In this document: positions 156 through 63,922 of the stretch, piece after piece | Layout of the letters: each line of letters opens with the position of its first letter | How positions within the stretch are numbered: the first letter of the stretch is position 1 | Source of the DNA: Calothrix sp. HK-06 | GTDB taxonomy: Bacteria > Cyanobacteriota > Cyanobacteriia > Cyanobacteriales > Nostocaceae | NCBI RefSeq assembly: GCF_001904745.1 | Contig: NZ_MRCD01000008.1 | Location: 1 to 64,000, forward strand | Direction of reading: 5' to 3' | Length of the DNA: 64,000 nt | Notes under the pieces: generated by a model | What the model saw: only the letters and a program-made list of their open reading frames with translations | What the model was told of the DNA's origin: nothing | Database searches by the model: none | Position numbers and translations under genes: made by a program

Positions 156-525
156 TTCCAAACATTTAGCACGCTAATTACACAAGAACTGCAAAGCGGC
201 GCCGTGGTTACATCAGTAGAAAATGCAGTCCAAACTATACAAGCTTTTGAGCAAAGAAAGTTTGATATGCTTCTAAGCGATATTGGAATGCCTCAAATGG
301 ACGGTTACGCGCTGATGCGACACATTCGGGCAGTAACATATGGGCAAAACACAAAAATTGTAGCTGTAGCACTGACTGCCTATGCTGGAGAAATGAATCA
401 ACAGCAAGCACAAAGCAGCAGGATTTCAAAGACATGTTACCAAACCAGTTGACCCAGAGCATCTGGTAAACGTTATTGTTGATTTAAAAAATAAAAGTAG
501 AAATATTTCCAAAAGTGCATATTGA
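156..525 (+). pseudogene. Frameshifted response-regulator receiver (REC) domain remnant
   Basis: The reading frame before and after position 204 encodes the second half of a receiver domain: a typical phospho-acceptor strand (LLSDIGMPQMDGY, Asp in the SDIGMP motif) and the LTAYA strand. Near 412-414 a run of A appears to carry one extra base. The frame then changes, and the downstream frame gives GFQRHVTKPVDPEHL, with the conserved Lys of the KPVDP motif, ending with TGA at 523-525. The N-terminal acidic residues are missing because a stop lies at 153-155. The closest in-window relatives are the C-terminal receivers of the kinases at 16-18 kb. It is best read as the decayed 3' end of a hybrid histidine kinase, not an active regulator. 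Confidence 0.75.
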
Positions 526-649
526 CTCCAACCTCTACCCTATAGAGTAATTAAGCCCCAAAACCAATTAAGTATAAACACTGAAGCAAAAAATACTCGT
601 AATTGCGTATTAATGCTTAACTACTATTAAGGGATAAAGAGGTACTATT

Positions 650-2242
650 ATGTTGAATTTTACAAATTGGAAGAACATTCCAGCGCTACCTAAGCGTGAA
701 CACAATAATCAGAAATTTTTTACATACCTTATACTGAATAACCGAAAAGGATTCTCTTCGCTACAATGGAAAAATCAGCGGAATTTACAACGTAATATTA
801 AGTTGTATGAACAAATGCATCACAAATTTCGTGATTTATGTCATCTGCAAGATAAAGGGAATGCAATGGCGCAATTTTGGCGCGAAGTTGTGCTGAATGA
901 AGCAACCGCTAATTCTTGGGAACCGACTAATAAAACGCAGTTAGCATGGGAACACTTAGCAAGTTTTTTTGAAGAAAAGTGTTATTGGACTGCTAAGGAT
1001 TTGTGCAGGGACTCAAATTTAGAAACTTGGGAGGAATTTTTGTGTTTAGCAAGATTACTAATTTATAATCCTCTCAAATTAAGAGAAATTTTAGTTCGGT
1101 ATAATCCTTCTAGAAAGAATTTAGATGCTTATGTGTCTGAAGCTTTAAGTAATTATGTCAAAAGTGAAACGACCCAAAATAAATTCTCGCGATGGCGCCT
1201 TCTTTATAGTAAAAGTGATAAAGAATTGAAAGAAGCGTTACAAGTTTTTGGACGGAATGAACCAGAAATTTCACAACTTATCTTTGCAAGAAAATATTTT
1301 AAACAAGTTTATCTTATGAGTAAAGTTAAAAACCCTGCTAGAAAGGTTGGTCAGAAATGGCTTAATCCAGATGCACATGATTTTGAACAATCTGCAAAGT
1401 GTTATAATACCGAAAAATCAAGTAAATCGGCGCCATACGAAGTATCAGTTAATTCCATGAAAGTAACTGGTACAGAAATACAACAGTGGATGGAGATTTG
1501 TATTCAAGCGTTGGAACAGTATCCAAAATCAATTTTACCTCAGTTTTCATTAGAAGCACTACAATCTACAGGATTTGAAGCTAAATCTGAATCAATAAAA
1601 TCAATTGAAGAACTTGAATGGCAAAACGCATTAGTCGCAGAAGAAAGTGAACAATTGCACTCATCAGATACAATTAATTCAACTTTGTCTGAACATTTAA
1701 AAACGTTAAAGCTCGATGTTCAAAAAATTCTGTTTCTTTACTATGGCTTCAACTTCAATCAAAAGCAGCTAGCTGATATATTAAATATGAATCAAAGTAG
1801 TATTTCTCGCTGTTTAACAAAATCTATGTTAAATTTATCAACTGATATATTAAATATTTCGCAACCGCAAGTTTGGACATGTGATTATATACAAAGATGG
1901 TTAAAGCAAAGCTATCAGGCGCCTACCCATTCAGATATACTTCAAGCAAGTTTAGTTATGAGTGTGAAGAAGCTCTCAGATGAGGAACGAGAACTTTTAC
2001 AGGTTTATCGTAATCAACAACTCAATATGGATAAAGATAAAAGTAAATTTGATAATATAATAAATAAATTACAAGATAATTTCCTAAAAGATATTAATAA
2101 TTGGATGAAAAAATATATTGACAAATGGCTGAGTAAGTATTATAAATCTGTTTCTATATCCCTCTTAAAAAATGCAAATTATAAATACAATGAAAAATTA
2201 GATACACAAACAATAGTTTCTTTAGTAGAAACATATTTTTAA
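650..2242 (+). CDS. Sigma-70-like helix-turn-helix protein of the cyanobacterial DUF1822-associated type
   Basis: This 530-residue protein starts at an ATG preceded by AGAGGT. A central helical region (about residues 70-215) resembles the large cyanobacterial sigma-factor-like proteins. Around residues 347-395 there is a region-4-like helix-turn-helix with the pattern LFLYYGF, then NQKQLADIL, then NQSSISRCL, as in sigma factors that recognise the -35 box. No clear region 2 is visible, so whether it directs transcription as a true sigma factor is uncertain. It lies 63 bases upstream of a DUF1822 gene on the same strand, a pairing known in filamentous cyanobacteria and often found near TPS or CHAT genes. 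Here a truncated TPS gene follows, convergent. Its regulatory targets are unknown. Confidence 0.7.
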   Translation: MLNFTNWKNIPALPKREHNNQKFFTYLILNNRKGFSSLQWKNQRNLQRNIKLYEQMHHKFRDLCHLQDKGNAMAQFWREVVLNEATANSWEPTNKTQLAWEHLASFFEEKCYWTAKDLCRDSNLETWEEFLCLARLLIYNPLKLREILVRYNPSRKNLDAYVSEALSNYVKSETTQNKFSRWRLLYSKSDKELKEALQVFGRNEPEISQLIFARKYFKQVYLMSKVKNPARKVGQKWLNPDAHDFEQSAKCYNTEKSSKSAPYEVSVNSMKVTGTEIQQWMEICIQALEQYPKSILPQFSLEALQSTGFEAKSESIKSIEELEWQNALVAEESEQLHSSDTINSTLSEHLKTLKLDVQKILFLYYGFNFNQKQLADILNMNQSSISRCLTKSMLNLSTDILNISQPQVWTCDYIQRWLKQSYQAPTHSDILQASLVMSVKKLSDEERELLQVYRNQQLNMDKDKSKFDNIINKLQDNFLKDINNWMKKYIDKWLSKYYKSVSISLLKNANYKYNEKLDTQTIVSLVETYF

Positions 2243-2305
2243 TTTTATTTCATTAGCCACTGTTTAGTACTTGTGTTAAATACTTGAAATTGTGAGGAAA
2301 ATACC

Positions 2306-3538
2306 ATGTTGAGACTACCTGATTTTATGTCAATCGATACAGCAAATTTGTGGCTTAATGTTCCGCAATTAGAACAAGAAAAAGCACATAGACAAGCCCA
2401 AAGTTATTCTAACCCGACTGCTTGTTATAATGCTTATCTAAATAACATTTGTCTGTATCAATTTTTCAATTGGCTTGAAGATTGGTTACGCGAAGAATAT
2501 AATTTAAGTGCTTCCGTTTTTCCTTCTGAGCAAGGTCTTGCTTATATTTGGGAAGTTGTAAGTGGTGCAGCTATCCAATTTGGTGATACTCGACTGGTAT
2601 TAATTCCTACAGAAACGTTAGATTTGGATGTTTTGTGTGTACCTCAAGAGTGGGTGGATATTGGGAGTTGGAAAGCAGATTATTATATTGGTGTACAAGT
2701 AAATTTAGATGCTGATGATGATTGCTGGATGCGAGTATATGGTTTTACTACGCACCGTCAACTTAAAAATCAAGGCACTTATAACCAAGATTCTCGCTGT
2801 TACTCTTTACCTGTAGAAGCATTAGCAGATAATATTATTTCTTTATTTGCAACATTAGAATTAAATTTGCAGGTTGCAGTACCATCTGAAGTTACCTTAT
2901 CTGAAGTTGAAGCTACAGATTTATTACATATTTTAGGTGACGCATCAGTTTATAATCCAAGATTGTTTGATATCCCATTTACTCAATGGGCAGCGCTTAT
3001 TTCTAATGAACAATGGCGCCAACAACTTTACAATCGACGTTTAGGTATACTCAAAAATACTGCGTCTGTTTCTTTACTCAACCAGTCAACAGCTTTAGTC
3101 AATCTTAATCAATGGTTTGAACAGTTTTTTGAAGTCGGTTGGCAGTCTGTTGATGCACTTATCGATACACATTTACTCAATTTAGCGCTTGAGTGTAGAG
3201 GTTCCCACAGTAAGGAGTTGACACAAAAAGGCGCCAAAATAGTTGACCTAGGAATGCAAATTGATGGAAAATCGGTAGCGTTACTACTTGCTATTTCTAC
3301 TGAAGCTGAGGGAAAAACAGGAGTTATTGCACAAGTTCATCCTACTGGTAATGATGCCTACCTACCACTGAATTTAAAGCTGTCGCTGATAGAATCTGGT
3401 AATGTTTTACAAGAGATTCAATCGAGGAGTCGAGATTGCTATATTCAGTTAAATCGTTTTAAAGTATTACCTGGTGCTAATTTTAGTATTAGACTAGTCT
3501 TAGGGGAATTTAGTATCACCGAAGATTTTGTGATTTGA
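2306..3538 (+). CDS. DUF1822 family protein
   Basis: This protein of 410 residues starts at an ATG with GAGGAA upstream. It has the DUF1822 signature order: an N-terminal helical segment with paired tryptophans (FNWLEDWLREE), a middle beta-rich region, and a C-terminal half beginning near 'LNQWFEQFFEVGWQS' that ends in a beta-sandwich-like block. DUF1822 has no assigned biochemical function. In cyanobacteria it is typically encoded directly after a sigma-70-like gene, as here, which suggests the two act together. No signal peptide or membrane segment is visible, so it is probably cytoplasmic. The 3' end overlaps the truncated TPS reading frame on the opposite strand by 23 bases. Confidence 0.8.
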   Translation: MLRLPDFMSIDTANLWLNVPQLEQEKAHRQAQSYSNPTACYNAYLNNICLYQFFNWLEDWLREEYNLSASVFPSEQGLAYIWEVVSGAAIQFGDTRLVLIPTETLDLDVLCVPQEWVDIGSWKADYYIGVQVNLDADDDCWMRVYGFTTHRQLKNQGTYNQDSRCYSLPVEALADNIISLFATLELNLQVAVPSEVTLSEVEATDLLHILGDASVYNPRLFDIPFTQWAALISNEQWRQQLYNRRLGILKNTASVSLLNQSTALVNLNQWFEQFFEVGWQSVDALIDTHLLNLALECRGSHSKELTQKGAKIVDLGMQIDGKSVALLLAISTEAEGKTGVIAQVHPTGNDAYLPLNLKLSLIESGNVLQEIQSRSRDCYIQLNRFKVLPGANFSIRLVLGEFSITEDFVI

Positions 3539-22310: not shown

Positions 22311-22531
22311 GCGGTTGATTATTAATCACTTAAGTTACTAATAACCAATATGGATAAAAAGATTTTACTTATGCATTTTTAAAACACAGGCGCCTACAAG
22401 TAGTTTCAAGAGAAGGCAGCGGGTTTGGGGGTGAAGTATTTACCAACACTTATAAACGTTGTTTTCCTGCATGTTGTGTACTATTGGTAAATCGGTGCCT
22501 ACCCCCTAAAATTAAGGACGTAGAATACAAC

Positions 22532-23053
22532 TTATAAAAAAGAGGTGCCTTCTTCAAGTTCAGCTGCTCTTATTGCGCGCGAGCATACCCAGTCTGATGC
22601 AACAACGGCTGGCCATCCTTTGCGTACTGCTTCGGGACATATTGTGTAAATAGTTAGTTGACAGTCGATTAGTTCTAAGCCTGATTTTTCAACTTGTTTT
22701 GTTGCTTGTTTGAGAATAGAAGTATTTTCAAATTCTATTGTCATGTTACACTGGGCACACACCATGTGATGATGATGATTAGGTGATGATGTGTTAAGTT
22801 CGTAGTGTTTGTGTACTTCTGCTAACTCTAGTTCCCGCAATATCCCCATCCGTGTCATGAGTTTTAAGGTACGGTAAATAGTAGACAGACTAATTCCTTC
22901 TTGACGTTTTTCTAGCAGAGCGAATAGTTCCTCTGCACTTAGGTGTTTTCCTTGTGGCAGATTTTGAAACACTTCTAATATTACTTCCCGTTGGGGTGTC
23001 AATCGCCACCCTTTGGAGTTTAGTTCGGCTTTGAGAGAATTTGCTGTATACAT
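22532..23053 (-). CDS. Fur-family transcriptional regulator (FurA-like), paralogue 1
   Basis: 173 residues. The winged helix (SLKAELNSKGWRLTPQREVI through LSTIYRTLKLMTRMGI) and the metal region HHHHMVCAQC fit the FurA subgroup. The second CxxC pair found in many Fur proteins is absent: the sequence reads CPEAVRKGWP. A C-terminal tail of about 25 residues (DWVCSRAI) goes beyond the usual Fur end. The protein at 59909 shares all these peculiarities and much of its sequence, so the two are paralogues. It probably senses iron or redox state. It is monocistronic. Confidence 0.85.
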   Translation of the reverse strand: MYTANSLKAELNSKGWRLTPQREVILEVFQNLPQGKHLSAEELFALLEKRQEGISLSTIYRTLKLMTRMGILRELELAEVHKHYELNTSSPNHHHHMVCAQCNMTIEFENTSILKQATKQVEKSGLELIDCQLTIYTICPEAVRKGWPAVVASDWVCSRAIRAAELEEGTSFL

Positions 23054-23137
23054 AAATTACAACTCATGGGCTGGGTACATCAATTTATCATACGATACAT
23101 AGGTGCCGAGTTGCAATAAACATTGGCTATTGAGAAA

Positions 23138-23212
23138 AAGAAACCTGAAGAAACCCGGTTTCTTTGTTGAGATATTGTAATAATAACTATTTCGCGTAAA
23201 AACCGGGTTTCT
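23138..23212. repeat. Pair of GAAACCCGG palindromic repeats
   Basis: GAAACCCGGTTTCTTTG is followed 50 bases later by AAAACCGGGTTTCTG. Both are copies of the dispersed GAAACCCGG family, in the gap between the Fur gene and the hydrolase. Confidence 0.6.
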
Positions 23213-23333
23213 GTTAAATAGAATTCTTGACAATATAAATATTGTTAAATACGATGGTTTCTCGATTGCATTTTTTGGAGGCACGCTTTTTTCATTGCGT
23301 GTTACATCTCTGTGTTCCTGACACAATATACAC

Positions 23334-24368
23334 ATGAAATCTAATTTTTTATTACTTACTTGTTTAAGTGTTATCCTGTTTCCATTGACAGTAAAAGCGG
23401 AGCAAACAATAAAGGTAAACGAGCTAGCTAGTTCATTTAGCACAAATACGATACCATTACCAGGACTTCGATTCATTCCCCCAAAGGAGCGAAATAACTC
23501 TGTTCCTATCTCGGTTCCAGAAGTAAATAGAAATAATTCTAAATTTGCTGGTGTTATTAGTTTAAGACAAGAAATGTCATTGTTAGAAACTCAAATCAAA
23601 ACATTGATGAATCGCTACAAGTCGCTGACACCAGGAATCTTTTTTTTAGATTCACAAACAGGTGATTATTTAAATATTAATGGAGAAAAAATATTTCCTG
23701 CTGCTAGTACAATAAAATATCCAGTTTTGATTGCATTGTTTGAAGAAGTTGATGCAGGTAGAATTCGATTGAATGAAACAATGGTAATGCAGCGCAGACA
23801 TTTAGCAGGTGGTTCGGGGAATATGCGCTTTCGTCCTGCTGGAACTAAATTTAGTTTGCTAGAGACGGCAACTCGGATGATGACTATTAGCGATAATACT
23901 GCAACCAATATGGTCATCGAACGTTTAGGAGGTATTGCAAAATTAAATAAACGTTTTCGCACGTGGGGACTTGAGCAGACAGCAATGCGAAATATGTTAG
24001 GAGACTTTGGGGGAACGAATAGAACAAGTGCAAAAGACTTGGTACGTTTATCAGCTTTAGTGACAAATAGCAATTTACTTAGTGATGCGAGTCGCAATCA
24101 AGTTTTAAATATAATGTATCGATGCCAAAACCGTAGATTATTACCTTCTGGTTTAGGGAAAGGCGCCAATATTGCTCACAAAACTGGTACTTTAAGATTT
24201 GTGCTGGGAGATGCGGGTATTATCCAAACAGCTTCGGGTAGAAAATATTTGGCTGGTATTTTAGTGAGAAGACCTCATCATAGTCCGCAAGCTAGAGATT
24301 TTATTCGTCAAGTTTCTCAATTGGTGTATAACCATCTCGATCAACCGACCATAACACGTTTGCCGTAA
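23334..24368 (+). CDS. Secreted serine hydrolase of the class A beta-lactamase fold
   Basis: 344 residues with a signal peptide (cleavage near VKA, residue 21). A low-complexity stretch of about 60 residues follows, then the catalytic domain: SxxK as S125-TIK, SDN at 186-188 in MTISDNTATN, and KTG at 283-285. These are the three active-site boxes of penicillin-recognising enzymes. The glutamate-bearing omega loop motif ExxLN is not obvious, so strong beta-lactam hydrolysis is doubtful. A periplasmic peptidoglycan-related or esterase role is possible. It stands alone, divergent from fur. Confidence 0.85.
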   Translation: MKSNFLLLTCLSVILFPLTVKAEQTIKVNELASSFSTNTIPLPGLRFIPPKERNNSVPISVPEVNRNNSKFAGVISLRQEMSLLETQIKTLMNRYKSLTPGIFFLDSQTGDYLNINGEKIFPAASTIKYPVLIALFEEVDAGRIRLNETMVMQRRHLAGGSGNMRFRPAGTKFSLLETATRMMTISDNTATNMVIERLGGIAKLNKRFRTWGLEQTAMRNMLGDFGGTNRTSAKDLVRLSALVTNSNLLSDASRNQVLNIMYRCQNRRLLPSGLGKGANIAHKTGTLRFVLGDAGIIQTASGRKYLAGILVRRPHHSPQARDFIRQVSQLVYNHLDQPTITRLP

Positions 24369-24382
24369 TTACGCTGTAAATG

Positions 24383-24408
24383 TAGAGACGTGATTAATCA
24401 CGTCTCTA
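24383..24408. repeat. Perfect 26-base palindrome of the TAGAGACG family
   Basis: TAGAGACGTGATT is followed by its exact reverse complement, 14 bases after the hydrolase stop. It shares its ends with the elements at 9179, 26466 and 39591. Confidence 0.7.
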
Positions 24409-24930
24409 GGTCATTCCACAATAACGTTTTTCCGTCAAGTCTCTATACCCCAATAGAAGTACTACTTTAGATAGAGATACATATACACCGAGATATACCT
24501 TTGGAGCGAAGATATACTTGCGAATTATGCGTAGTCTAGTAATTGTCAATTCACGCTATAGCCACTTCACGCATAGTTATGAGTTATGAATGTCATGACT
24601 CATAGCTGTTTTTTTGTTTATAACAGTATTTTTAATATTTTTATTTTAGACTAAGTTTTGTAAAATTTGATTTTTTTTTAGATATTATATTTCGGACGGT
24701 AAAAAATTAGTATATCTCTCTTTAGAGCGAAGCTTTGAAATTATTTGATAGATAGCATAATAAGTATCAAAAATCGTCAACTAGCTCCTTGATATTTATG
24801 GGCTATAAGTAAGGATAATTAATATATATTATATTGTTTATTTAGACTTGTAGCTCATATATTTCTTCTCGAAGCGAGTTGTATATGTAGATTTGTAATG
24901 CACTAGAAATATATATCCTTAACCAAGATT
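24409..24930. other. AT-rich gene-free stretch before the stress-type cluster
   Basis: About 520 bases without a plausible gene. It holds ATGCGTAG and ACGCATAG sequences that could pair (24527-24575), a terminator-like hairpin (24575-24615) and then a strongly AT-rich tract leading to the DUF2267 gene. A small RNA ending at that hairpin, or a long 5' leader, is possible but not demonstrable here. Confidence 0.4.
24575..24615 (+). terminator. Intrinsic terminator
   Basis: AGTTATGAGT pairs with ACTCATAGCT (one G-T pair), with seven T residues almost directly after. It could end the hydrolase transcript or an unannotated small RNA. Confidence 0.6.
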
Positions 24931-25329
24931 ATGAAGTACGACGAGTTTATTAAGAATGTTCAGAACGCAGCTGGGTTAAACTCCCGTGAGGAAGCGATAA
25001 ATGTTACTCGTGCAACATTAGAAACTATTCGCGAACGTATTGTTGGTGATGAGGCAAAAGATTTAGCTTCACAACTACCTAAAGAGTTAGGTGACTTTTT
25101 ACATGGACGTGAAGGTCAAAACGGGAATTACTTCAAGTGTGATGAATTTATCAAAATGGTGAGCGAAAAAGAAGGTGTTTCTACGGAAGTAGCTACCAGT
25201 CACGCTCGTGCGGTATTTAGTGTTGTAGAAAGTGCAGTATCCGCAGGTGAGTTTGAAGATGTACGTTTAAATTTCTCTGATGATTACAGTGAAATATTAC
25301 CTGCTGTAAAAAATGAAGTTAAAGCATAG
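24931..25329 (+). CDS. DUF2267 family protein
   Basis: 132 residues made of two similar helical repeats, each opening with a YDEFI or CDEFI motif: KYDEFIKNVQNAAGLNSREE and FKCDEFIKMVSEKEGVSTE. The first ends in the QLPKELGDFLHG signature of DUF2267. Function is unknown, but the family is common near stress proteins. It opens a run of co-directional genes to 32004, the next starting 31 bases later. It has no signal peptide. The ATG has no strong ribosome-binding site, which hints at a structured leader. Confidence 0.85.
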   Translation: MKYDEFIKNVQNAAGLNSREEAINVTRATLETIRERIVGDEAKDLASQLPKELGDFLHGREGQNGNYFKCDEFIKMVSEKEGVSTEVATSHARAVFSVVESAVSAGEFEDVRLNFSDDYSEILPAVKNEVKA

Positions 25330-25360
25330 TTGATATTGTAGAGCAACAATTGGAGACAAT

Positions 25361-26452
25361 ATGTCAAGTAATGGTCATCATAAGAAAAAAGTAGCTATTC
25401 TCATTGAAGCAAATGTAGAAGATGCAGAGTTTGAGGTACCTTATAATGCTTTAAAGCAAGCAGGAATGGATGTCGTTGTTCTCGGTTCTCGAATGAGCGA
25501 GACTTATAAAGGTAAACGTGGCAAAGTCTCTGTAAAACCCGATGCTACGACAAGCGAAGCTATTGCTGCTGAATTTGATGCAGTGATTATACCTGGTGGT
25601 ATGGCGCCTGATAAAATGCGTTGTAACCGTAATACAGTAAGATTTGTGCAGGAAGCGATGGCACAAAATAAGATAGTCGCTGCTGTTTGTCACGGGCCTC
25701 AGTTATTGATAGAAGGTGACTTGCTTAAGGGTAAGAAAGCCACTGGATATATGGCTATCCGTAAGGATATGATTAACGCAGGCGCCAATTATTTGGATGA
25801 AGCATTAGTAGTTGATGGTAATTTAATTACATCACGTCAACCTGGCGACTTAGCTGTATTTAGTACAGCAATTTTGAGTCGCTTAGGCTACGGTGGTAAG
25901 GATGTAGCTTTACCTTCGGAACGTGATAAAGACGCGGAATGGTGGAAATTAGCTGATGCTTGGGGTGGTTCAACCAAGGGTGAAATAGTTAAAGCACTCA
26001 ATACAGCTTTAGCAGGTGAAAAATATTCGCTCGAAGCACTCGAACAATATTCGCAAAAAGAATCTGATTCTCAAATCAAATCACTCTTTGGAGAGATGAT
26101 TCAAAATAAAGGGCGCCATATTCAATATTTAGAAGCGCGATTAAATCAACTGGGTGAAAAACCTTCGTTGACTGCGAATATTGCTAACCAGTATGCAAAA
26201 GTAAAAACTGCGCTAACTGGTAGTGATGATATATTCCAGCTACGTTCAGCATTAGGTGACGTACAAACGGGTATTGGCGACCTTAGCAATTTAATGCCTT
26301 CTACTACTGACCCAATATCAACTGCTATTTTTGCAGAAATTGTCAAAGACTTAATGATGTCCGAGCAGCGTTTAGTTGAATTATATCGTGCCAAAGTTGG
26401 CGCAGATACCAAATCAGCTAACCCAACAACAGGCGCCGCTGTTACTATGTAA
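25361..26452 (+). CDS. DJ-1/PfpI-domain protein fused to a C-terminal helical domain
   Basis: 363 residues, preceded by GGAG. Residues 9-180 form a PfpI/DJ-1 domain: KVAILIEANVEDAEFEVP, IIPGGMAPDKMR and AAVCHGPQLLIEG with the nucleophile-elbow Cys followed by His. After a linker, residues about 210-345 are helical (LNTALAGEKYSLEALEQYSQ, IQYLEARLNQLGE), resembling ferritin-like or DUF2383-type bundles, though metal ligands are not convincingly complete. DJ-1/PfpI proteins act as glyoxalase, deglycase or protease-like stress enzymes. The fusion with a four-helix-type domain is unusual. Confidence 0.8.
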   Translation: MSSNGHHKKKVAILIEANVEDAEFEVPYNALKQAGMDVVVLGSRMSETYKGKRGKVSVKPDATTSEAIAAEFDAVIIPGGMAPDKMRCNRNTVRFVQEAMAQNKIVAAVCHGPQLLIEGDLLKGKKATGYMAIRKDMINAGANYLDEALVVDGNLITSRQPGDLAVFSTAILSRLGYGGKDVALPSERDKDAEWWKLADAWGGSTKGEIVKALNTALAGEKYSLEALEQYSQKESDSQIKSLFGEMIQNKGRHIQYLEARLNQLGEKPSLTANIANQYAKVKTALTGSDDIFQLRSALGDVQTGIGDLSNLMPSTTDPISTAIFAEIVKDLMMSEQRLVELYRAKVGADTKSANPTTGAAVTM

Positions 26453-26465
26453 ACCCTTTCATCTG

Positions 26466-26525
26466 TGTAGAGACGCGATTAATCCCTACCCTTCGGGAAA
26501 ACCTTCGGTTTACGTGTCTCTACAT
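26466..26525. repeat. Composite TGTAGAGACG repeat with nested CTACCCTTCGGG
   Basis: It begins TGTAGAGACGCG, contains CTACCCTTCGGGAAAAC and CTTCGG, and ends ACGTGTCTCTACA. It is the same architecture as the larger element at 39591-39733. It lies inside the gene cluster, between the PfpI and SRPBCC genes. Confidence 0.65.
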
Positions 26526-26559
26526 ACAGCAATATTATCAATATGTATGGAGTAGGAAA

Positions 26560-27252
26560 GTGGCATCAACATCAGAAAATATTAGTACTAATCAAAACGA
26601 AGCAGGCGATACTGAACGCTGGGCTTCATTAATTAGTGGTGGTGCAATGGTATTATTGGGCTTAAAGCAGCGTTCACTAAGAGGAGCATTAACTGCTATA
26701 GCCGGAGGTGGGTTAGTTTACCAAGGCGTAAAGAAAAAAAGTACTATTCAACAAGCACAAGAAGCTATAGGAATAGGACAAGTTATTAAAGTTGAAAAAA
26801 CGGTAACTATCAACAAACCTGCTGATGAGTTATACCGTTTTTGGCGTAACTTGGAGAACTTGCCTAATTTTATGAAGCATCTCAAAGAAGTTAAAGAACT
26901 AGATAATAAACGTTCACACTGGGTTGCAACGGCGCCATTAGGTACAAGCATTGAATGGGATGCTGAAATTCTTGAAGACCGTGAGAATGAGTTTATTTCT
27001 TGGGCTTCGGTAGAAGATGCAGATGTGGATAATTCTGGTTTTGTCAGGTTTACAAAAGCACCTGGAAACAGAGGTACTGAAGTGAAAGTTGTGATGGAAT
27101 ATACTCCACCAGGAGGTGCCTTAACAGCAGCTTTTGCAAAACTCTTTGGCGAAGAGCCAGAACAGCAAATAGGTGATGAGCTACGTCGCTTCAAGATGTT
27201 AATGGAAGCTGGCGAAATAGCCACAACCGAAGGACAACCACGCGGTAAGTAA
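26560..27252 (+). CDS. SRPBCC-fold (polyketide cyclase/dehydrase-like) protein with membrane-spanning N-terminus
   Basis: 230 residues with a GTG start, supported by GGAGTAGGAAA directly upstream. Residues about 22-62 form a glycine-rich hydrophobic pair of segments (SLISGGAMVLLGL, LTAIAGGGLVYQGV) of the DUF2892 type. The SRPBCC domain follows: VEKTVTINKPADELYRFW, NLPNFMKHLKEV, FISWASVEDADV and EVKVVMEYTPPGG. This fold binds lipids or hydrophobic ligands. The next gene starts 9 bases later, so the dehydrogenase is co-transcribed. Confidence 0.85.
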   Translation: MASTSENISTNQNEAGDTERWASLISGGAMVLLGLKQRSLRGALTAIAGGGLVYQGVKKKSTIQQAQEAIGIGQVIKVEKTVTINKPADELYRFWRNLENLPNFMKHLKEVKELDNKRSHWVATAPLGTSIEWDAEILEDRENEFISWASVEDADVDNSGFVRFTKAPGNRGTEVKVVMEYTPPGGALTAAFAKLFGEEPEQQIGDELRRFKMLMEAGEIATTEGQPRGK

Positions 27253-27261
27253 GGTAAAAAT

Positions 27262-28431
27262 ATGAAAGCTGTTTGTTGGCACGGAGCAAATGACGTGCGG
27301 GTTGAAACTGTAGATGACCCAAAGATTCTTAACCCGCGCGATATTATTCTCAAAATTACATCTACTGCCATATGTGGTTCGGACTTACATATATATGGTG
27401 GTTATATTCCTACCGTTCAGCCTGGTGATATCATCGGTCATGAATTCATGGGAGAAGTAGTTGATGTTGGTAGTAATATCAGTAATCTTAAAGTCGGTGA
27501 TAGAGTAGTAGTACCTTCGATGATTGGTTGCGGTCACTGTCACTACTGTTCGCATGATATGTGGTCGCTATGTGATAACTCCAACCATAAGGGTTGGATG
27601 GAAGAGAAACTATTTGGTAGTATCACTTCAGCTATTTATGGATATTCTCATACTTTTGGTGGATATGCAGGCGCCCAAGCTGAGTATGTAAGAGTTCCAT
27701 ATGCGGATGTTGGCACTCTTAAAGTTCCTAAAGATATACCAGATGAAAAATTACTATTTATCTCAGATGCTATCCCAACCGGATATATGGGTGCCGAGTT
27801 ATGTGATATTCAACCTGGTGATACTGTAGCCGTATGGGGATGTGGTTCAGTCGGTCAATTTGCGATGATCAGTGCTTATATGATGGGCGCAGAAAAAGTT
27901 ATTGGTATTGACCGCTTTCCAGAACGGTTAGAGTTAGCCAAGAAATATGCTAAAGCTGAAGTAATTAACTACGAAGAAATAGACGCAGGTGAAGCGTTGA
28001 AAGAAATGACGGGTGGTCGTGGGCCTGATGCTTGTATTGATGCTGTAGGTTTAGAAGCGCATGGTGTAGGGTTTGAAGACTTTTACGACCAAACAAAGCA
28101 AAAATTGCGTTTAGAAACTGACCGTCCTCATGTTTTACGACAAATGATGTTAGCTTGTCGTAAAGGTGGCACCCTCTCCATTATGGGTGTATATGGAGGC
28201 TTCATTGATAAAATGCCTCTCGGCGCCGCTTTCAATAAAGGTCTAACCTTCCGCATGGGACAAATGCACGGTCAAAAGTACATGCATAAGCTTCTCGAAT
28301 TGATATTAGAAGGTAAATTTGACCCCTCACAAGTAGTTACACATCAACTTCCATTAGATCAGGCGCCATACGGTTACGAAATATTTCAGCAAAAGAAAGA
28401 TAACTGTATTAAAGTAGTCTTAAAGCCGTAA
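27262..28431 (+). CDS. Zinc-dependent alcohol dehydrogenase, formaldehyde-dehydrogenase-like, paralogue 1
   Basis: 389 residues of the medium-chain dehydrogenase family. The catalytic zinc site is CGSDLH and GHEFMGE. The structural zinc has four Cys (GCGHCHYCSHDMWSLC), and the Rossmann motif is VWGCGSVGQFA. The length and the FGYSHTFGGYAG-type loop fit the glutathione-independent formaldehyde dehydrogenase-like group. It oxidises an alcohol or aldehyde using NAD(P); the substrate is unknown. It has a close paralogue at 29238, with one secreted-protein gene between, suggesting local duplication. Confidence 0.9.
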   Translation: MKAVCWHGANDVRVETVDDPKILNPRDIILKITSTAICGSDLHIYGGYIPTVQPGDIIGHEFMGEVVDVGSNISNLKVGDRVVVPSMIGCGHCHYCSHDMWSLCDNSNHKGWMEEKLFGSITSAIYGYSHTFGGYAGAQAEYVRVPYADVGTLKVPKDIPDEKLLFISDAIPTGYMGAELCDIQPGDTVAVWGCGSVGQFAMISAYMMGAEKVIGIDRFPERLELAKKYAKAEVINYEEIDAGEALKEMTGGRGPDACIDAVGLEAHGVGFEDFYDQTKQKLRLETDRPHVLRQMMLACRKGGTLSIMGVYGGFIDKMPLGAAFNKGLTFRMGQMHGQKYMHKLLELILEGKFDPSQVVTHQLPLDQAPYGYEIFQQKKDNCIKVVLKP

Positions 28432-28505
28432 AAAACAATTTTTTTGGCTATTTTTGCGGAATTAACTTCAAATTTTCAACATCTATCCAATGGAGGAACT
28501 TTTCA

Positions 28506-29141
28506 ATGAATATATTACGTAGAGCATTGACTCTATTAATAGCAGCATTTACATTCTTCACAATTCAATTTGGTAACACCAGCATCCAACCAGCATTTGC
28601 TGACAACACAGTAGTATCACCCGAAGGCGTATACTACAAAGGTACGCCAAATGATGATATCCACAGAAATCTCGGACAAAATAACTACGGTAGCGACAGC
28701 AACAAAAACAAACAAAACAACAACGGTATTAAAGGCGAAAATTACAAAAATAACGCTGAAGAGACCGAGTTTTACAGAACCAAAGTTGATGACGGTACTG
28801 TTGGCTCACAAGCTAAAAACAGAACCCAAGCAAGCGGTGCAACAGTAACATCACCTGAAGGCGTATATTACAAAGGTGTGCCAGATGATGATGTTCATAA
28901 AAATCTAAAACAGAATAACTATCCTAGCGATACTAAGAACTACAATACTAGCAGCGGCAACATCATAGAAGAAGCTAAAAACAAACTCCAAGAAACCGCT
29001 GAAACAGTAACAGAAAAACTCAACCTGAACGAAGAAACACCCCGTGCGACTAAAGAGTTCTTACGTTCTAGTGAAAAGCAAGTAGAAAAAACTGTTGAAC
29101 CTGTAACCGGAACTCGTAGCGGTTACTATCAACTTCCTTAA
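28506..29141 (+). CDS. Secreted protein with duplicated SPEGVYYKG repeats
   Basis: 211 residues with a strong ribosome site (GGAGG). The signal peptide ends near QPAFA (residue 33). Two repeats of about 35 residues begin VVSPEGVYYKGTPNDDIHRN and VTSPEGVYYKGVPDDDVHKN. Both are hydrophilic, Asn-, Lys- and Asp-rich, and probably disordered. The C-terminal third is a charged helix (KLQETAETVTEKLNL). The pattern resembles stress-protective secreted proteins of cyanobacteria, but I know no function. It lies between the two dehydrogenase paralogues. Confidence 0.8.
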   Translation: MNILRRALTLLIAAFTFFTIQFGNTSIQPAFADNTVVSPEGVYYKGTPNDDIHRNLGQNNYGSDSNKNKQNNNGIKGENYKNNAEETEFYRTKVDDGTVGSQAKNRTQASGATVTSPEGVYYKGVPDDDVHKNLKQNNYPSDTKNYNTSSGNIIEEAKNKLQETAETVTEKLNLNEETPRATKEFLRSSEKQVEKTVEPVTGTRSGYYQLP

Positions 29142-29237
29142 CTCTTACTTTGTGACCTTTGTGGTTAAAAAATATTAAGCCACAAAGGCACAAAGAAAAG
29201 AAAGAAATTATTTACATTATTAATTAGGAATATAATT

Positions 29238-30407: not shown

Positions 30408-30416
30408 TAAACTTAG

Positions 30417-30442: not shown

Positions 30443-30477
30443 ATCTTCCTATCTCTACTTATCCCCAACCACCCTAA

Positions 30478-31632: not shown

Positions 31633-31662
31633 TCACGACTATAACAGTAGGAGAAAATAATC

Positions 31663-34257: not shown

Positions 34258-34262
34258 AAATT

Positions 34263-34493: not shown

Positions 34494-34505
34494 TATTTCC
34501 CTCAT

Positions 34506-34965: not shown

Positions 34966-35970
34966 TTGATATTTAATAAGGTTGTAAGTTTGTTTAAGGA
35001 GACGTTAGAAGAGTGGTCAAAGGATAAAGCCTCACGGTTAGCAGCCGCATTATCTTATTACACGATATTTTCCATCGCTCCTTTGTTAATCATTATCATT
35101 GCTGTTGTCGGCGCCATATTTGGTGAAGAGGCAGCAAGAGGTGCTATTGAAGTACAACTCCAAGGTTTAGTAGGTTCAGAAAGTGCTGCACTTATTCAAG
35201 GCGCCATTCAAAGTGCAAGTCAACCACGACAAGGAACGATTGCATCAGCAATTAGTGTTCTAGTACTATTATTTGGTGCTACTGGTCTATTTACAGAATT
35301 ACAAGATTCACTCAATACAATTTGGGAAGTACAGCCCAAACCTGGACGTGCAGTAAAAAACATGATTCGCCAAAGGTTTCTATCGTTTACGATGATTTTG
35401 GGAATCGGGTTTTTATTATTAGTCTCACTTGTGATGAGTACTGCTTTATCTGCTACAGTCGCTTATTTTCAAAATATATTACCAGGTATTGATGGTATTT
35501 GGCAGTTAGTCAGCTTTTTTGTATCTTTTGCCGTCACGGCTATACTATTCGGATTAATCTTTAAAGTTCTTCCAGATGTTAAAATTGCTTGGAGTGATGT
35601 TTTAATCGGTGCCTCGTTAACATCGTTATTATTTTCAATTGGTAGATATTTACTAGGTTTTTACTTAGCAAGAGCCACATTTAACTCTACTTATGGTGCC
35701 GCTGGTTCAATAGTAGTGATTTTATTTTGGGTTAACTACGCTGCTCAAATTTTATTTTTTGGTGCCGAATTTACACAGGTATATGCACGTAGATACGGAA
35801 CACAAATAGTTCCCGATAAAAATGCAGTACCAATAACAGAAGAAGCGCGTTTACAACAGGGAATGAAACCGAATAATCCTAAGCGTACATCCCGTAAGAA
35901 TAATAATTGGTTAAATCGTTTGTGGCGGCAGTTGAAACTGTCTAAAAATAATCGCAGAAAAAATTATTAA
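34966..35970 (+). CDS. YihY/BrkB family membrane protein
   Basis: 334 residues from a TTG start, decided by AAAGGAGAG located 5-6 bases upstream; there is no nearby ATG. About six membrane helices are visible, with the family's SRLAAALSYYTIFSIAPLL near the N-terminus, then FGATGLFTELQDSLNTIWEV, and FNSTYGAAGSIVVILFWVNY towards the end. A basic C-terminal tail of about 50 residues follows. The family was once called ribonuclease BN, which it is not. It is probably a transporter or structural membrane protein of unknown function. A good terminator follows. Confidence 0.9.
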   Translation: MIFNKVVSLFKETLEEWSKDKASRLAAALSYYTIFSIAPLLIIIIAVVGAIFGEEAARGAIEVQLQGLVGSESAALIQGAIQSASQPRQGTIASAISVLVLLFGATGLFTELQDSLNTIWEVQPKPGRAVKNMIRQRFLSFTMILGIGFLLLVSLVMSTALSATVAYFQNILPGIDGIWQLVSFFVSFAVTAILFGLIFKVLPDVKIAWSDVLIGASLTSLLFSIGRYLLGFYLARATFNSTYGAAGSIVVILFWVNYAAQILFFGAEFTQVYARRYGTQIVPDKNAVPITEEARLQQGMKPNNPKRTSRKNNNWLNRLWRQLKLSKNNRRKNY

Positions 35971-36018
35971 CAAAATCCTTGTTAAGACTTTACATATAAT
36001 ATCCAGTTAGTTAAATTA

Positions 36019-36047
36019 CCTCTGTGAAGGCTCACAGGGGCATTTTT
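36019..36047 (+). terminator. Intrinsic terminator after the YihY-like gene
   Basis: CCTCTGTGA pairs with TCACAGGGG (one G-T pair) around a 4-base loop, followed by CATTTTTATG. Confidence 0.75.
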
Positions 36048-36187
36048 ATGATTTTGTTAAATTTGTTACGGGTTTTGAATTAATGTATCCAAGCAAAATA
36101 TAATTAACAGGGTTAGGCGCCCCGTCTGACCTAAAACACAGACAGGGTGAATAATACACAGAATACACAGGCAAGATGCCTGTGCTA

Positions 36188-37411
36188 CTAGTTAATATTA
36201 GTTTTCCATTCAGGGCCAGCATTAATTACGGTACTTTCCGAAGCAGTGGTACCATTCATGAACCATAATTTATTGTCACCGCTTGTGGTGTCACGCCAGA
36301 AAATATCAGTCTTACCATCATCATCGAAATCACCGATAGTATATTTCAACGATGGGTCAGTTTTAGCCAAGAATGCTGAAGTAGAAACTGATGAGCCATC
36401 CATTAGCCAAGCTGTATTTTCTCCAGTTCTTTGATTACGCCAAAAAATATCGGTTTTACCATCTCCATTAAAATCACCAATATCAGCTTTCCAATCTGAA
36501 TTGACTTTCTCAAGGTCACTGCTGAAAAGTAAGGTTCCATTCATTAACCACATTGATGTATCACCTGTGGCTTTATTTTGCCATAGAACATCATTTCGGT
36601 TGTCTCCGTTAAAATCTCCTATCTTATAATCCCAATTAGCATCCATTTTTTGCAAGAAGGAACCAGAAAAATCGGTGCCATTCATCAACCAAACTGCCGT
36701 CTCAGTAGTATTTTTATTACGCCAAAATAAATCTGTTCTGCCGTCACCATTGAAATCAACCATAGTTGGTTGCCAACCTAAATCCTCTGTTCGAGTCAAA
36801 TAAGCTGCGGTTTTAACGTTATTATTATCCATCAACCAAGTTGCATTTTCACCAGTTGCGGTATTATGCCAAAATGCATCACTTTTACCATCACCATCAA
36901 AATCAGCAATATCTAGTTTCCAATTAGAGTCTATGGTTTGTAGTTGAGTGGAGCTAGCAACATTACCACCATCCATTATCCACAAGCTATTTTCACCTGT
37001 TTTTTTATTGCGCCAAAAAATATCACTTTTAGCATCGCGGTTAAAATCACCTAGTTTGTACTCCCAGTCTGAACTCATACTTGGCACAAACTTACCTTCA
37101 GATATATTTTTGCCATCCATTATCCAAATAGCTGTTTCACCCGTCTTATCATCACGCCACAATAAATCTTTTCTGCCATCTCCATTAAAATCGGCGTATG
37201 TACCAGGATTACTAAAAATAGAATTAGGATTAGGATTCGACCTGGGTATATTATATTGTTGATTCGATATTTTCCCTAAAGATGAATTAGAAGACTTACT
37301 AAAATCAAAAGTAAAACCTGGGTTATCTATCAGGTCATTCTTTGGTATAAAAGCGCTAACTGAATCTATATTCCCAAAAGGGGTATTTGCTGATAATTTA
37401 GAAGAGTCCAT
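36188..37411 (-). CDS. FG-GAP/VCBS repeat protein, seven-bladed propeller candidate
   Basis: 407 residues. An N-terminal segment of about 65 residues (Ser/Asn-rich, no signal peptide) is followed by seven repeats of 46-50 residues, each with a DFNGDGKTDIFW-type calcium loop, a TGE(N/T) turn and a W(L/I)MDG strand. The second repeat has a degenerate loop (DFNRDAKSDIFW). The number of repeats equals one beta-propeller. Such proteins are usually extracellular adhesins or lectin-like, often exported by type I systems. The encoded end is the repeat itself, without an RTX tail. It is 184 bases downstream of the small double-glycine peptide gene, on the same strand. Confidence 0.85.
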   Translation of the reverse strand: MDSSKLSANTPFGNIDSVSAFIPKNDLIDNPGFTFDFSKSSNSSLGKISNQQYNIPRSNPNPNSIFSNPGTYADFNGDGRKDLLWRDDKTGETAIWIMDGKNISEGKFVPSMSSDWEYKLGDFNRDAKSDIFWRNKKTGENSLWIMDGGNVASSTQLQTIDSNWKLDIADFDGDGKSDAFWHNTATGENATWLMDNNNVKTAAYLTRTEDLGWQPTMVDFNGDGRTDLFWRNKNTTETAVWLMNGTDFSGSFLQKMDANWDYKIGDFNGDNRNDVLWQNKATGDTSMWLMNGTLLFSSDLEKVNSDWKADIGDFNGDGKTDIFWRNQRTGENTAWLMDGSSVSTSAFLAKTDPSLKYTIGDFDDDGKTDIFWRDTTSGDNKLWFMNGTTASESTVINAGPEWKTNIN

Positions 37412-37553
37412 GATACGATTATTGAGTAATTTTCAATAATTCTTAATGTTTTTTACTCAATAATCTGTAAAATAGTAACATACTTTATTTTTGAGAAAGT
37501 AGCGTAAATATCAAAAAAATTTATCACGCATAAATATTATAATTATTTCTTAG

Positions 37554-37580
37554 GGTGCGTGGTGCTTGAAGTCACGCACC
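37554..37580. repeat. GGTGCGTG / CACGCACC hairpin
   Basis: Perfect 8-base arms and an 11-base loop, 15 bases after the small peptide's stop codon (minus strand). It probably acts as its terminator and belongs to the GGTGCGTGAC family seen at 56091-56251. Confidence 0.6.
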
Positions 37581-37595
37581 AACATATCGTAAGAC

Positions 37596-37832
37596 CTAGC
37601 TAATAACAATATTTTGCCCAGCACTAGACGCTACTTCACTAAAATTGAATAATGAACCAGTGTAGCTTCCATTGGGGCCTGCATAGGTTTGTTGAGCAAC
37701 ATTCAAAGTTTTTTGGTAAAAACTATTGTTGGCACTCGACGCAAACCCACCAATATCACCTAGAATAAGAGATAAACCACCTGCAACATTATCAAGTTCA
37801 TCCAGTGATAGTTCGATTGCTTCATTAGACAT
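37596..37832 (-). CDS. Small peptide with double-glycine leader (bacteriocin-precursor-like)
   Basis: 78 residues with AGGAGA upstream of ATG 37832. The first 19 residues form a leader of the LSLDELDNVAGG type: acidic helix ending in GG, the signal cleaved by C39-peptidase ABC exporters. The rest (LSLILGDIGGFASSANNSF onwards) has no cysteine, is rich in Ser, Asn and Gly, and shows a little resemblance to CTB-type cyanobacterial bacteriocins. No exporter or modification enzyme is encoded in this window. The FG-GAP gene lies next downstream. Role as bacteriocin, signal or surface peptide is open. Confidence 0.7.
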   Translation of the reverse strand: MSNEAIELSLDELDNVAGGLSLILGDIGGFASSANNSFYQKTLNVAQQTYAGPNGSYTGSLFNFSEVASSAGQNIVIS

Positions 37833-38097
37833 TTTTCTAATCTCCTTTATGATTATTTGAATACGTCTGTTTGCTTTCTTGTGTACATACTATAAATTTT
37901 GCTTTCGCTTTGGTATCGGGAAAAAGTTGGGATAAAAGGCGCCTCATCTCCATCAAAAATAGTCATCCTTTAGTTTGATAAATTTTACAAAACGATACGT
38001 TGCGAAAATTAATGTAAAAATACTTTGCTCTAAAGTACATATTGCATATATTTTAGAAGATGGATAAGATTAATTTTTATTAACCGGGGGGTTAAAA

Positions 38098-39579
38098 ATG
38101 TACATTGTACAAATAGCCTCAGAGTGTGCGCCTGTAATAAAAGCAGGTGGCTTGGGCGATGTCGTGTACGGACTAAGTAGGGAGTTAGAGAGCAAGGGGC
38201 ATTGTGTCGAATTGATTCTTCCCATGTACGATTGTATGCGCTATGACCATATATGGGGATTACATGATGCGTACCGTGAACTCTGGGTACCCTGGTATGG
38301 TGGACGAATTCATTGCTCTGTATATTGCGGTTGGGTGCATGGTCGAGTTTGCTTCTTTATTGAGCCGCATTCAGAAGACAACTTTTTTCATCGTGGGTGT
38401 TATTACGGGTGCAATGACGACAATATGCGTTTTGCTTTCTTTAGTAAAGCAGCATTGCAGTTCTTGCAGCAAAGTAATAAATGCCCAGATATTATTCATT
38501 GTCATGACTGGCAAACTGGTTTAATACCTGTAATGTTATACGAGATATATAAGTATAACGGTATGGAATTCCAGCGCGTCTGCTATACTATCCACAATTT
38601 TAAACACCAAGGTATATGTGGAAACGAGGTTTTAGAAGCAACTGGTTTGAACCGTCCTGAATATTATTATCAGTACGAGAAGTTACAGGATAACTTTAAT
38701 CCCTTTGCACTGAATATGATGAAGGCGGGTATTGTATACTCAAATGCTGTTACTACAGTATCACCGCATCATGCTTGGGAAGCCGAACATACTGATATTA
38801 GCTGCGGCTTAGGACATACTTTATACTTACATCGCGATAAATTCCAAGGAGTTCTCAACGGTATTGACTTTGAATTTTGGAATCCCAAAGTTGATAAATA
38901 CATTCCTTTCAATTACACGACAGAAGATTTTGAACAGAAGCAATATAATAAAAAGGCTTTACGCGAACGGTTAAAGTTAGGCGATAGTGATAAACCCCTA
39001 ATTGCTTATATCGGGCGCCTTGATGCTCAGAAGGGTGTACACTTAGTTCACCATGCAATTTATCATGCCCTGGAACGCGGTGCCCAATTTGTTTTACTTG
39101 GTGCTGCCACTGAACCCAGTATCAACAGTTGGTTTGTTCACGAACAATCTTTCTTAGCAGAGAACCCAGATGTACATATTGAATTAGGATTCAACGAGGA
39201 ATTATCGCACCTAATATATGCAGGTGCCGATATGATAATTGTACCAAGTAACTATGAACCATGTGGACTCACACAAATAATTGGTTTAAAATATGGCACA
39301 GTGCCGATAGTGCGAGGTGTTGGTGGGTTAGTAAACACAGTATTTGACTGGGACTATGACCAAATGCACTCCAAAGAAACACGTAACGGGTTTGTGTTCT
39401 TTGACCTCGATAACTACGCTTTAGAATCAGCAATGGGACGAGCGATAGATTTATATAATATCAGTCCTGAACTGTTCCGTCAGTTAGCGATTCAAGGAAT
39501 GGAGTACGATTACTCCTGGAACAATCCCGGTGATAAGTATATAGAAATATACGATAGTATTCGCCACAAATGGGAATAA
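38098..39579 (+). CDS. glgA: Glycogen synthase (GlgA)
   Basis: 493 residues of GT5. The ADP-glucose-binding motif KAGGLGDV lies at residues 16-23, and the C-terminal domain has YIGRLDAQKGVHLV and the donor-binding PSNYEPCGLTQIIGLKYG (catalytic Glu). It elongates glycogen from ADP-glucose. The ribosome site is a run of six G bases (CCGGGGGGTTAAAA) before ATG. Cyanobacteria often have two GlgA enzymes. The cysteine-rich middle and the short WNNPGDKY ending look more like the GlgA2 group, but I cannot place it firmly. Monocistronic. Confidence 0.93.
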   Translation: MYIVQIASECAPVIKAGGLGDVVYGLSRELESKGHCVELILPMYDCMRYDHIWGLHDAYRELWVPWYGGRIHCSVYCGWVHGRVCFFIEPHSEDNFFHRGCYYGCNDDNMRFAFFSKAALQFLQQSNKCPDIIHCHDWQTGLIPVMLYEIYKYNGMEFQRVCYTIHNFKHQGICGNEVLEATGLNRPEYYYQYEKLQDNFNPFALNMMKAGIVYSNAVTTVSPHHAWEAEHTDISCGLGHTLYLHRDKFQGVLNGIDFEFWNPKVDKYIPFNYTTEDFEQKQYNKKALRERLKLGDSDKPLIAYIGRLDAQKGVHLVHHAIYHALERGAQFVLLGAATEPSINSWFVHEQSFLAENPDVHIELGFNEELSHLIYAGADMIIVPSNYEPCGLTQIIGLKYGTVPIVRGVGGLVNTVFDWDYDQMHSKETRNGFVFFDLDNYALESAMGRAIDLYNISPELFRQLAIQGMEYDYSWNNPGDKYIEIYDSIRHKWE

Positions 39580-63353: not shown

Positions 63354-63428
63354 TATATAGTTCTGTAATTGCACGTATTATTTACATAACGTGTAAATTA
63401 AGAAAGCAAGTATTGTTTTATCTATTGG

Positions 63429-63463
63429 ATTCTAGATTTGCGTTTATTCATCAAATCTAGAAT
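63429..63463. repeat. Perfect 12-base inverted repeat
   Basis: ATTCTAGATTTG and CAAATCTAGAAT flank an 11-base loop, 75 bases after the FemAB-like gene. Without a T-run on either side it is not a clear terminator. Confidence 0.5.
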
Positions 63464-63535
63464 TCAACTAAAACAAACAATCGGTGTCCAAAGCCAAATA
63501 TAACCAGGAACAGGATTTTTTGTTGAAGGGAGTTT

Positions 63536-63922
63536 ATGAACTTGACATTAGAACAAAATTTAGCAGCAATCGATGACAAACTCTCACAACGGCACATCGA
63601 CTTAGACCCAGCAGGTTATTTTATTATTTACCTTGACCGTGATGCTGGGCTAATTTGCGCTAAACATTACACAAACGTTATTGATGAACGCGGTTTAGCT
63701 GTAGACCCTGAAACCGGAAAGGTAATTCCCGCACGTGGCAAAGTCGAGCGCACTCACACAGTTCTTTACACTGGCAGAACCGCTAAGGAACTTTGTGTCA
63801 AGCTTTTAGAAGAAACAGAACCTTGTCCAGTAACCATGTTCGACCATGCTGCATACCTCGGTCGCGAATTTGTCCGCGCAGAAAATGCCTTACTTACAGG
63901 CGCCGAGTATGTGCAAGACTAA
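63536..63922 (+). CDS. DUF4346 family protein
   Basis: 128 residues with GAAGGGAG upstream. The features are LDPAGYFIIYLDRDAGLICA, DPETGKVIPARGKVERT, TVLYTGRTAKELCVKLLEE and FDHAAYLGREFVRAENAL, the pattern of DUF4346, a family kept in most cyanobacteria and sometimes fused to dihydropteroate-synthase-like domains. Function is unknown; no signal peptide. It is the last gene of the window. Confidence 0.88.
   Translation: MNLTLEQNLAAIDDKLSQRHIDLDPAGYFIIYLDRDAGLICAKHYTNVIDERGLAVDPETGKVIPARGKVERTHTVLYTGRTAKELCVKLLEETEPCPVTMFDHAAYLGREFVRAENALLTGAEYVQD

Follow-up and report, generated by a model that had tools for sequence, protein, structure and literature searches.

In the large, filamentous cyanobacteria of the genus to which Calothrix sp. 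HK-06 belongs, the hexamer GGCGCC is the highly iterated palindrome (HIP) and replaces HIP1 (GCGATCGC); the swap is confirmed genus-wide. The finding starts from a stretch of 64,000 nucleotides of this strain, here called the window (C222:1-64000, contig NZ_MRCD01000008.1), which was followed into the source genome (G000; 9,990,453 bases, 243 contigs) and into a family survey of 217 genomes, 7 of the source genus and 210 others. On balance we consider it reasonably probable that GGCGCC, as the HIP of the genus, is marked by a solitary GRCGYC methyltransferase (MTase), eroded by deamination and restored by biased repair. The sites are distributed over the window as follows:

198..63904, no strand: GGCGCC palindrome set (alternate HIP), 103 copies, about one per 620 bases, in genes and gaps
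198..203, no strand: first GGCGCC of the window, from the sequence count
63899..63904, no strand: last GGCGCC of the window, from the sequence count
Examples of GGCGCC starts: 198, 1194, 1429, 1918, 3015 ... 62018, 62361, 63899

The composition of the window (37.6% GC) predicts 2.8 copies, and GGCGCC is by far the most over-represented of its palindromic hexamers (36-fold; CGCGCG, 6-fold). A maximal-order Markov model gives an expectation as high as 57.8, because the 5-mers it is built on mostly belong to GGCGCC themselves. The whole genome holds 15,449 copies, one per 647 bases or 1,546 per Mb, against 6 of the reversed control CCGCGG. In a genome sample of 541,586 bases, 856 copies were counted, 30.6 times the composition value and about 19 times that of a first-order Markov model; the second-ranked palindromic hexamer reaches 7.1 times, which leaves one GC-rich palindrome much more over-represented than any other. 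With about 1,150-1,711 copies per Mb in the congeners, both the source genome and these congeners lie within the 1000-2000 per Mb of an alternate HIP. A sequence-only reading of the window had put the palindrome at about 100 copies where about three were expected, roughly one in 640 bases, in genes, gaps and every frame. The counts bear this out, and the genome-wide excess is real.

GGCGCC is favoured at the DNA level, since it is present outside genes, in all frames and far above the expectation from codon use. In the genome sample, 710 sites lie in open reading frames (ORFs) of at least 150 amino acids (1.75 per kb) and 146 outside them (1.07 per kb), and the coding sites use all three frames (393/133/184); in the window, 80 of the 103 copies are inside such ORFs. 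Frame 0, which reads Gly-Ala, is the commonest with 393 of the 710 coding sites, as might be expected if the excess were an outcome of codon or amino acid use (Gly-Ala, Ala-Pro). However, of 742 Gly-Ala pairs 393 are spelled GGC GCC where the codon use of the same genes predicts 15.9, two relatives use this spelling in 0 of 191 and 1 of 148 pairs, the hexamer is rare in most relatives, and the excess reaches beyond genes and into every frame. We therefore give codon use next to no probability. Dense and dispersed sites would also suit a DNA uptake or segregation tag, like the DNA uptake sequence (DUS) or chi, but the palindrome has no extended consensus and its spacing is nearly random (coefficient of variation 1.06 in the genome sample), and such a role is very improbable. 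Counted on both strands, the 5' flank is T 80, A 66, C 43 and G 17 times; the flanks, previously described as variable, are so for T, A and C, with G rare. A strand or replication bias would not be visible in a palindrome.

HIP1 does not occur in the window, as had been read from its letters, and the genome has 88 copies against 66 of the reversed control; hence no concealed HIP1 excess exists elsewhere in the genome. All seven genus genomes carry 7,475-20,380 copies of GGCGCC, compared with 0-1,053 in the other 210 family genomes, and in the highest of these (G084, 1,053) the reversed control stands at 1,270. HIP1 is found 31-163 times per genus genome and hundreds to thousands of times in the other family genomes, G182 excepted (30), and GGCGCC is thus abundant where HIP1 is low or nearly absent. 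Besides the source strain, the genus comprises Dulcicalothrix desertica PCC 7102 (G060), Calothrix PCC 7103 (G061), NIES-4105 (G062), the metagenome-assembled genomes C42_A2020_038 (G063) and FI2-JRJ7 (G064), and PCC 7716 (G065).

A class-wide draw of 388 genomes was also surveyed for GGCGCC. Five genomes of family f16 (G331, G502, G511, G555 and G578) have about 1,500-1,900 copies per Mb; they were set aside as further cases, the reversed control being high too (ratio about 2). For G448 and G561 the ratio to the control is high; judged by samples of 64 and 27 kb, both are HIP1 genomes of the ordinary kind. G512 and G519 hold 671 and 560 copies, at ratios of about 15 and 17. In another family, G435 has 9,489 copies at 55% GC and no excess of HIP1, of which 45 kb hold one copy. 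Within these 45 kb GGCGCC is enriched 4.8-fold and AGCGCC 6.6-fold, and the leading octamers include CGGCGCCG and CCAGCGCC; this RGCGCC-type excess is a different motif, perhaps a further alternate HIP. G435 encodes a distant homologue (55%) of the GRCGYC-type MTase; in three of its congeners, none of which has a match to the MTase, GGCGCC occurs 304-343 times.

To accompany the swap, the sequence-only reading had proposed a matching methyltransferase. C5 methyltransferases were surveyed across the genus, and N4 and N6 types were sought in the source genome. Two C5 families are present in all seven members, represented by L003 (313-331 amino acids) and L004 (370 amino acids). L004 was dismissed as the cause because 180 of the 217 family genomes match it at E 1e-25, whereas the L003 family has matches in 7 of 7 genus members and in 56 of the other 210 genomes, some of them partial or broken. 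The L003 enzyme has the MTase domain PF00145, matches the PADLOC MTase_II model PDLC03270 over residues 10-309 with 470.6 bits, and carries a TI motif and an R followed by G/A spaced as described for M.BsaHI (from an alignment, spacing counted by eye); when the MTases were compared with NCBIfam and with PDB sequences, the matches were general C5 methyltransferases. It is likely a BsaHI/HindV-type C5 methyltransferase with GRCGYC as its expected target, and GGCGCC is one of the four sequences within GRCGYC. M.BsaHI is reported to methylate the central C of this site (PMC2413257), and GRCGYC is listed as a 5-methylcytosine (m5C) motif of Haemophilus influenzae Rd (PMC8565308). A gene whose expected target, by homology, covers GGCGCC is therefore encoded in all seven genus genomes, as was proposed, and the lineage has swapped its HIP; the match to the site is looser than foreseen, in that the enzyme type is expected to read the degenerate GRCGYC and not GGCGCC alone, and the gene is not sufficient, the 56 other family genomes with a match having only 0-277 GGCGCC. 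Counts of GACGTC were tried as a marker of carriers and did not separate them from non-carriers by eye, because whole clades avoid GACGTC.

Restriction-modification (R-M) systems of the BsaHI/HgiDI/HindVP group, which act on GRCGYC, resemble the genus enzyme in that it belongs, by sequence, to the same MTase family and that its relatives often have an adjoining restriction endonuclease (REase). Of the 56 carriers, 23 MTase loci were fetched (L110-L132) and 33 left out; a BsaHI-type REase match lies within 1.5 kb of the MTase in 17 of the 23, partial matches included, and REase-linked MTase loci number 52 in all. Sixteen of these 17 carriers have 0-10 GGCGCC. The accompanying REases measure 350-366 amino acids when whole; two that were scanned belong to Pfam PF09519 RE_HindVP, and two that were examined show the three motifs WGKNQF, (Q/K)(T/N)DKAF(A/S) and SPERRFD, published for BsaHI homologues (PMC2413257). 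The genus differs from these systems in two respects: GGCGCC is enriched instead of avoided, and no tblastn match (E 1e-5) to a BsaHI-type REase was found in 2.03 Mb of genus loci, overlaps counted and with MTase loci from each of the seven genomes, whole genomes not having been searched. The MTase locus is fixed in all six readable congeners, where the gene is flanked by a RuBisCO-like and a GHL10/SLH gene; in G064 only a short ORF represents the GHL10/SLH gene. Apparently, judged from these loci, the genus enzyme is a GRCGYC-type MTase that lost its restriction partner. Among the 217 genomes, a solitary MTase, no HIP1 excess and a GGCGCC excess come together only in the source genus, and the co-occurrence of the solitary MTase with HIP1 loss agrees with the two conditions of Elhai. 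G194, with little HIP1 (535 copies) and no MTase match, has 326 GGCGCC.

In the source genome an intact GRCGYC-type MTase copy is encoded on contig C60 (L074, 16.8 kb), probably a mobile element. Its neighbours are Mob_Pre, DnaB, three integrase-like genes and a DpdA-like gene (deoxypurine-in-DNA family), and the contig also holds a shorter ORF of 202 amino acids related to the MTase, 16 GGCGCC and 1 GATC. Elsewhere, at L075:1740-3044 and in relatives, a 435-amino-acid protein with no Pfam or PADLOC match adjoins a 658-amino-acid C5 methyltransferase and is possibly an unrecognised restriction partner.

The hexamers GGTGCC and GGCACC differ from GGCGCC by a central C-to-T change on one strand. 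In the window they occur 20 and 17 times, together 37:

22494..39228, no strand: GGTGCC/GGCACC, read from the congener alignment as decayed GGCGCC (central C to T, one strand)
Examples of decayed sites: 22494, 22544, 23102, 27790, 30162, 32530, 32696, 33553, 39079, 39223

One-mismatch forms had been called frequent; in the genome sample this holds for GGTGCC/GGCACC, enriched 1.85-fold, while the other 16 forms are depleted (0.29-0.74-fold). The enrichment of GGTGCC is 1.1-2.6-fold in seven genus samples and 0-0.52-fold in the relatives G192, G003, G045 and G194. Where the window could be aligned, 16 of 20 GGTGCC/GGCACC have GGCGCC as their counterpart in one or more of the six congeners; over all aligned source-genome DNA this is so for 52 of 64, and for 30 of 117 of the other 16 one-mismatch forms. 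By this comparison, the two forms look mostly like decayed GGCGCC sites. Read by eye, the share of decayed sites did not follow the MTase copy number of the genomes.

The histories of single sites were followed in aligned source-genome DNA, which amounts to 71 kb for G063 and about 106-128 kb for each of the other five congeners, the window contributing 7-19 kb; identity is 94-95% for four congeners, 87% for G062 and 82% for G063. Between the source genome and G062, 143 of 183 GGCGCC are retained, compared with 224 of 466 other all-G/C hexamers (p = 2e-12), and retention is better in all six pairwise comparisons (p 3e-4 to 2e-12). When GGCGCC is lost in a single lineage, the product is GGTGCC/GGCACC in 61 of 88 cases. 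With G062 as reference, the central C-to-T change is found on a single tip in 35 of 162 columns but never on the stem, whereas control NNCGNN words show it on tips in 118 and on the stem in 214 of 3,589 columns, the unpolarised control stem class also containing changes in G062 (35:0 vs 118:214, p = 4e-15). If both outgroups (G062 and G063) are required to agree, the tip:stem ratio is 13:0 of 70 columns vs 41:35 of 744 (p = 0.001). By columns, the tip excess of the change over controls is 3.4-6.6-fold. Changes other than to T behave likewise, with a tip:stem ratio of 12:5 vs 240:692 in controls (p = 1.6e-4) and, polarised, 7:1 vs 60:93 (p = 0.009). The raised C-to-T change on tips is the mark expected of m5C, and the T form is short-lived. 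Among the species, T and GGCGCC forms alternate in patterns that match no single tree.

The return of T forms was estimated with a rough three-state likelihood fit on the tree (120-kb set). For GGCGCC the fitted rates per unit branch length are 3.9 from the intact state to T (H to T) and 16.8 back (T to H), those of the pooled controls 3.0 and 0.28; fixing T to H at 1 makes the GGCGCC fit 20 log units worse. Returns were also counted directly, in columns where the remaining close species agree on T, with three or more of them represented, and GGCGCC returned in 3 of 30 lineage-columns, compared with 268 of 38,677 in controls.

These patterns may be accounted for as follows. Like M.BsaHI, the solitary BsaHI/HindV-type MTase would act on the central cytosine and yield GG-mC-GCC; we infer that the enzyme is active and the sites are methylated in the cell. 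Methylated cytosines deaminate, so that GGCGCC would decay continually to GGTGCC/GGCACC; these forms would be short-lived in evolution and revert to GGCGCC, most likely by mismatch repair directed by the methylated strand (the GmeC ratchet of Elhai) or by a similar T-to-C-biased repair. A different account, which we regard as somewhat unlikely, is that purifying selection keeps GGCGCC for a function of the site itself, as a methylation mark, a signal for the nucleoid or for repair, or a tag in recombination or uptake, and that mutations arise there freely and are purged over time. The high retention, the fading of both T and other changes from tip to stem and the presence of sites in genes and gaps and in all frames would suit it, but loss of the central C is raised on tips (35 of 162 vs 118 of 3,589 columns) although the genomes that these separate are about 5% apart. 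Selection of a fixed strength matching the fitted return rate should nearly abolish losses; a mutational or repair bias is favoured because selection strong enough for such returns should suppress the losses, which are not suppressed. We infer methyl-directed repair rather than weak selection as the restoring process.

Instead of methyl-directed mismatch repair, very short patch repair of the Vsr kind or a biased recombination process could also restore the T forms. In E. coli, Vsr repairs the m5C-deamination lesion beside Dcm. The losses at GGCGCC are mostly of this kind, and the flickering of T and C forms among species would fit such repair or recombination. A Vsr-like enzyme, however, acts before replication fixes the T:A pair and should lower the losses rather than add returns; a Pfam scan of the 10 proteins near two MTase loci found no Vsr, a genome-wide search not having been made. 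We consider this route improbable.

Several observations weigh against the reading of GGCGCC as a methylated site restored by repair. On the side of the enzyme, its specificity is assigned by homology, and an enzyme other than the C5 type could be the relevant one, as N4 and N6 types were sought in the source genome alone. An MTase without a nearby REase is not sufficient for a GGCGCC excess: four genomes of genus g26 combine the MTase, no nearby REase and HIP1 in thousands with 144-277 GGCGCC, and G189 and G142 have the MTase, no REase match within 1.5 kb and only 3 and 14 GGCGCC. Conversely, G165, the seventeenth REase-linked carrier, has 166. All positive cases fall into one clade and therefore count as one evolutionary event. 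The MTase copy that the source genome has at the fixed locus is divided between two contig ends, the starts of C29 (L075:3-305) and C207 (L008), and the C29 piece diverges from the family sequence after GPP; this chromosomal copy is either interrupted by an insertion or mis-assembled.

On the side of the mutations, GGTGCC is also enriched (1.28-fold) in G448, a distant GC-rich genome. Per lineage, the tip excess of the central C-to-T change is only 1.9-4.7-fold, and the fitted loss rate is only 1.3 times that of the controls. The T form is common to 2-4 close species in 8 of the 162 columns and mixed in 24, in five columns all the close species keep T, and the two columns in which both outgroups show T have it in every species. 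The 60-fold contrast in return rates is rough, because the control fit pooled 135 words and used a simple optimiser, and the direct returns are few. Single-lineage gains (8) are far below losses (88), which makes net decay on the tips possible. Weak purifying selection could explain the retention, with the T forms as young variants.

The GGCGCC HIP itself was already known, because Elhai described it in 2015 as an alternate HIP in Calothrix PCC 7103 (Life 5:921, PMC4390886). In that account, GATC stands at 16% of expectation in PCC 7103, whose CGATCG methyltransferase is damaged and which encodes two methyltransferases for GRCGYC, and G-mC-directed mismatch repair is proposed to create and refill HIP sites. 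Its GGCGCC evidence, as presented there, comes from a single genome, supplemented by a fragment (19 kb) from Calothrix D253 (PMC4390886). PCC 7103 is a congener of our strain, and the two agree in hexamer, density class, depletion of HIP1 and GATC, and GRCGYC MTases; the present data extend the GGCGCC HIP to all seven genomes of the genus, the most distant having about 82% nucleotide identity. In Elhai's argument, alternate HIPs turn up sporadically, and HIP1 alone lasts within clades (PMC4390886); for GGCGCC this is not upheld. According to the same article, no GRCGYC enzyme had a known methylated base (PMC4390886), whereas for M.BsaHI methylation of the central C had already been demonstrated (PMC2413257). 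A literature search found no later paper on a GGCGCC HIP. What is new beyond one strain is the genus-wide spread, the candidate solitary MTase and the mutation record of the sites. Like the HIP1 of most cyanobacteria, GGCGCC is a dispersed GC-rich palindrome, about one per kb, linked to solitary methyltransferases; it is unlike HIP1 in its sequence and its methyltransferase, and HIP1 is at background here.

Other short words are unevenly represented as well. GATC is nearly absent: the window has 10 copies, and relative to composition the word is at 7% in the genome sample and at 4-19% in six congener samples. GGCC is at 18% in the genome sample. TTCGAA, GTGCAC, GAGCTC, CGTACG, CGGCCG and CCATGG are absent from the 541,586 bases. 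A second palindrome, CGCGCG (with GCGCGC), has 17 sites in the window and is at 4.4-14.4 times expectation in the genus and at 0-0.6 times in seven other sampled genomes. Between the source genome and G062, 27 of 42 CGCGCG are retained, the changes being mainly central C-to-T; perhaps this is another HIP, weaker than GGCGCC and served by a separate methylase. Further features of the window are:

13998-14151, minus strand: cobalamin riboswitch (RF00174, 56.9 bits)
About 23139-23215, 37654-37820 and 39653-39731: short stretches with many partial matches across congener genomes, probably dispersed repeat families
40380-43319, minus strand: 980-amino-acid protein with a two-partner-secretion (TPS) domain

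It has long been asked why HIPs are present by the thousand in cyanobacteria. Tentatively, and at rather less than even chances, we suggest that the methylase of an R-M system lost its REase and became fixed in the genus, that GGCGCC thereby went from among the most avoided to the most abundant palindrome, and that the sites are self-restoring methylation marks; HIPs in general would then arise from biased repair, by which methylated sites are refilled, and not from selection on the letters. In a whole genus with HIP1 replaced and with close and distant species sequenced, the loss and retention of single sites can be observed, and the resulting mutation record of the GGCGCC sites is the most useful new element. 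The methylation-type mutation signature and the rapid loss of the mutant form make the repair-ratchet idea measurably testable.

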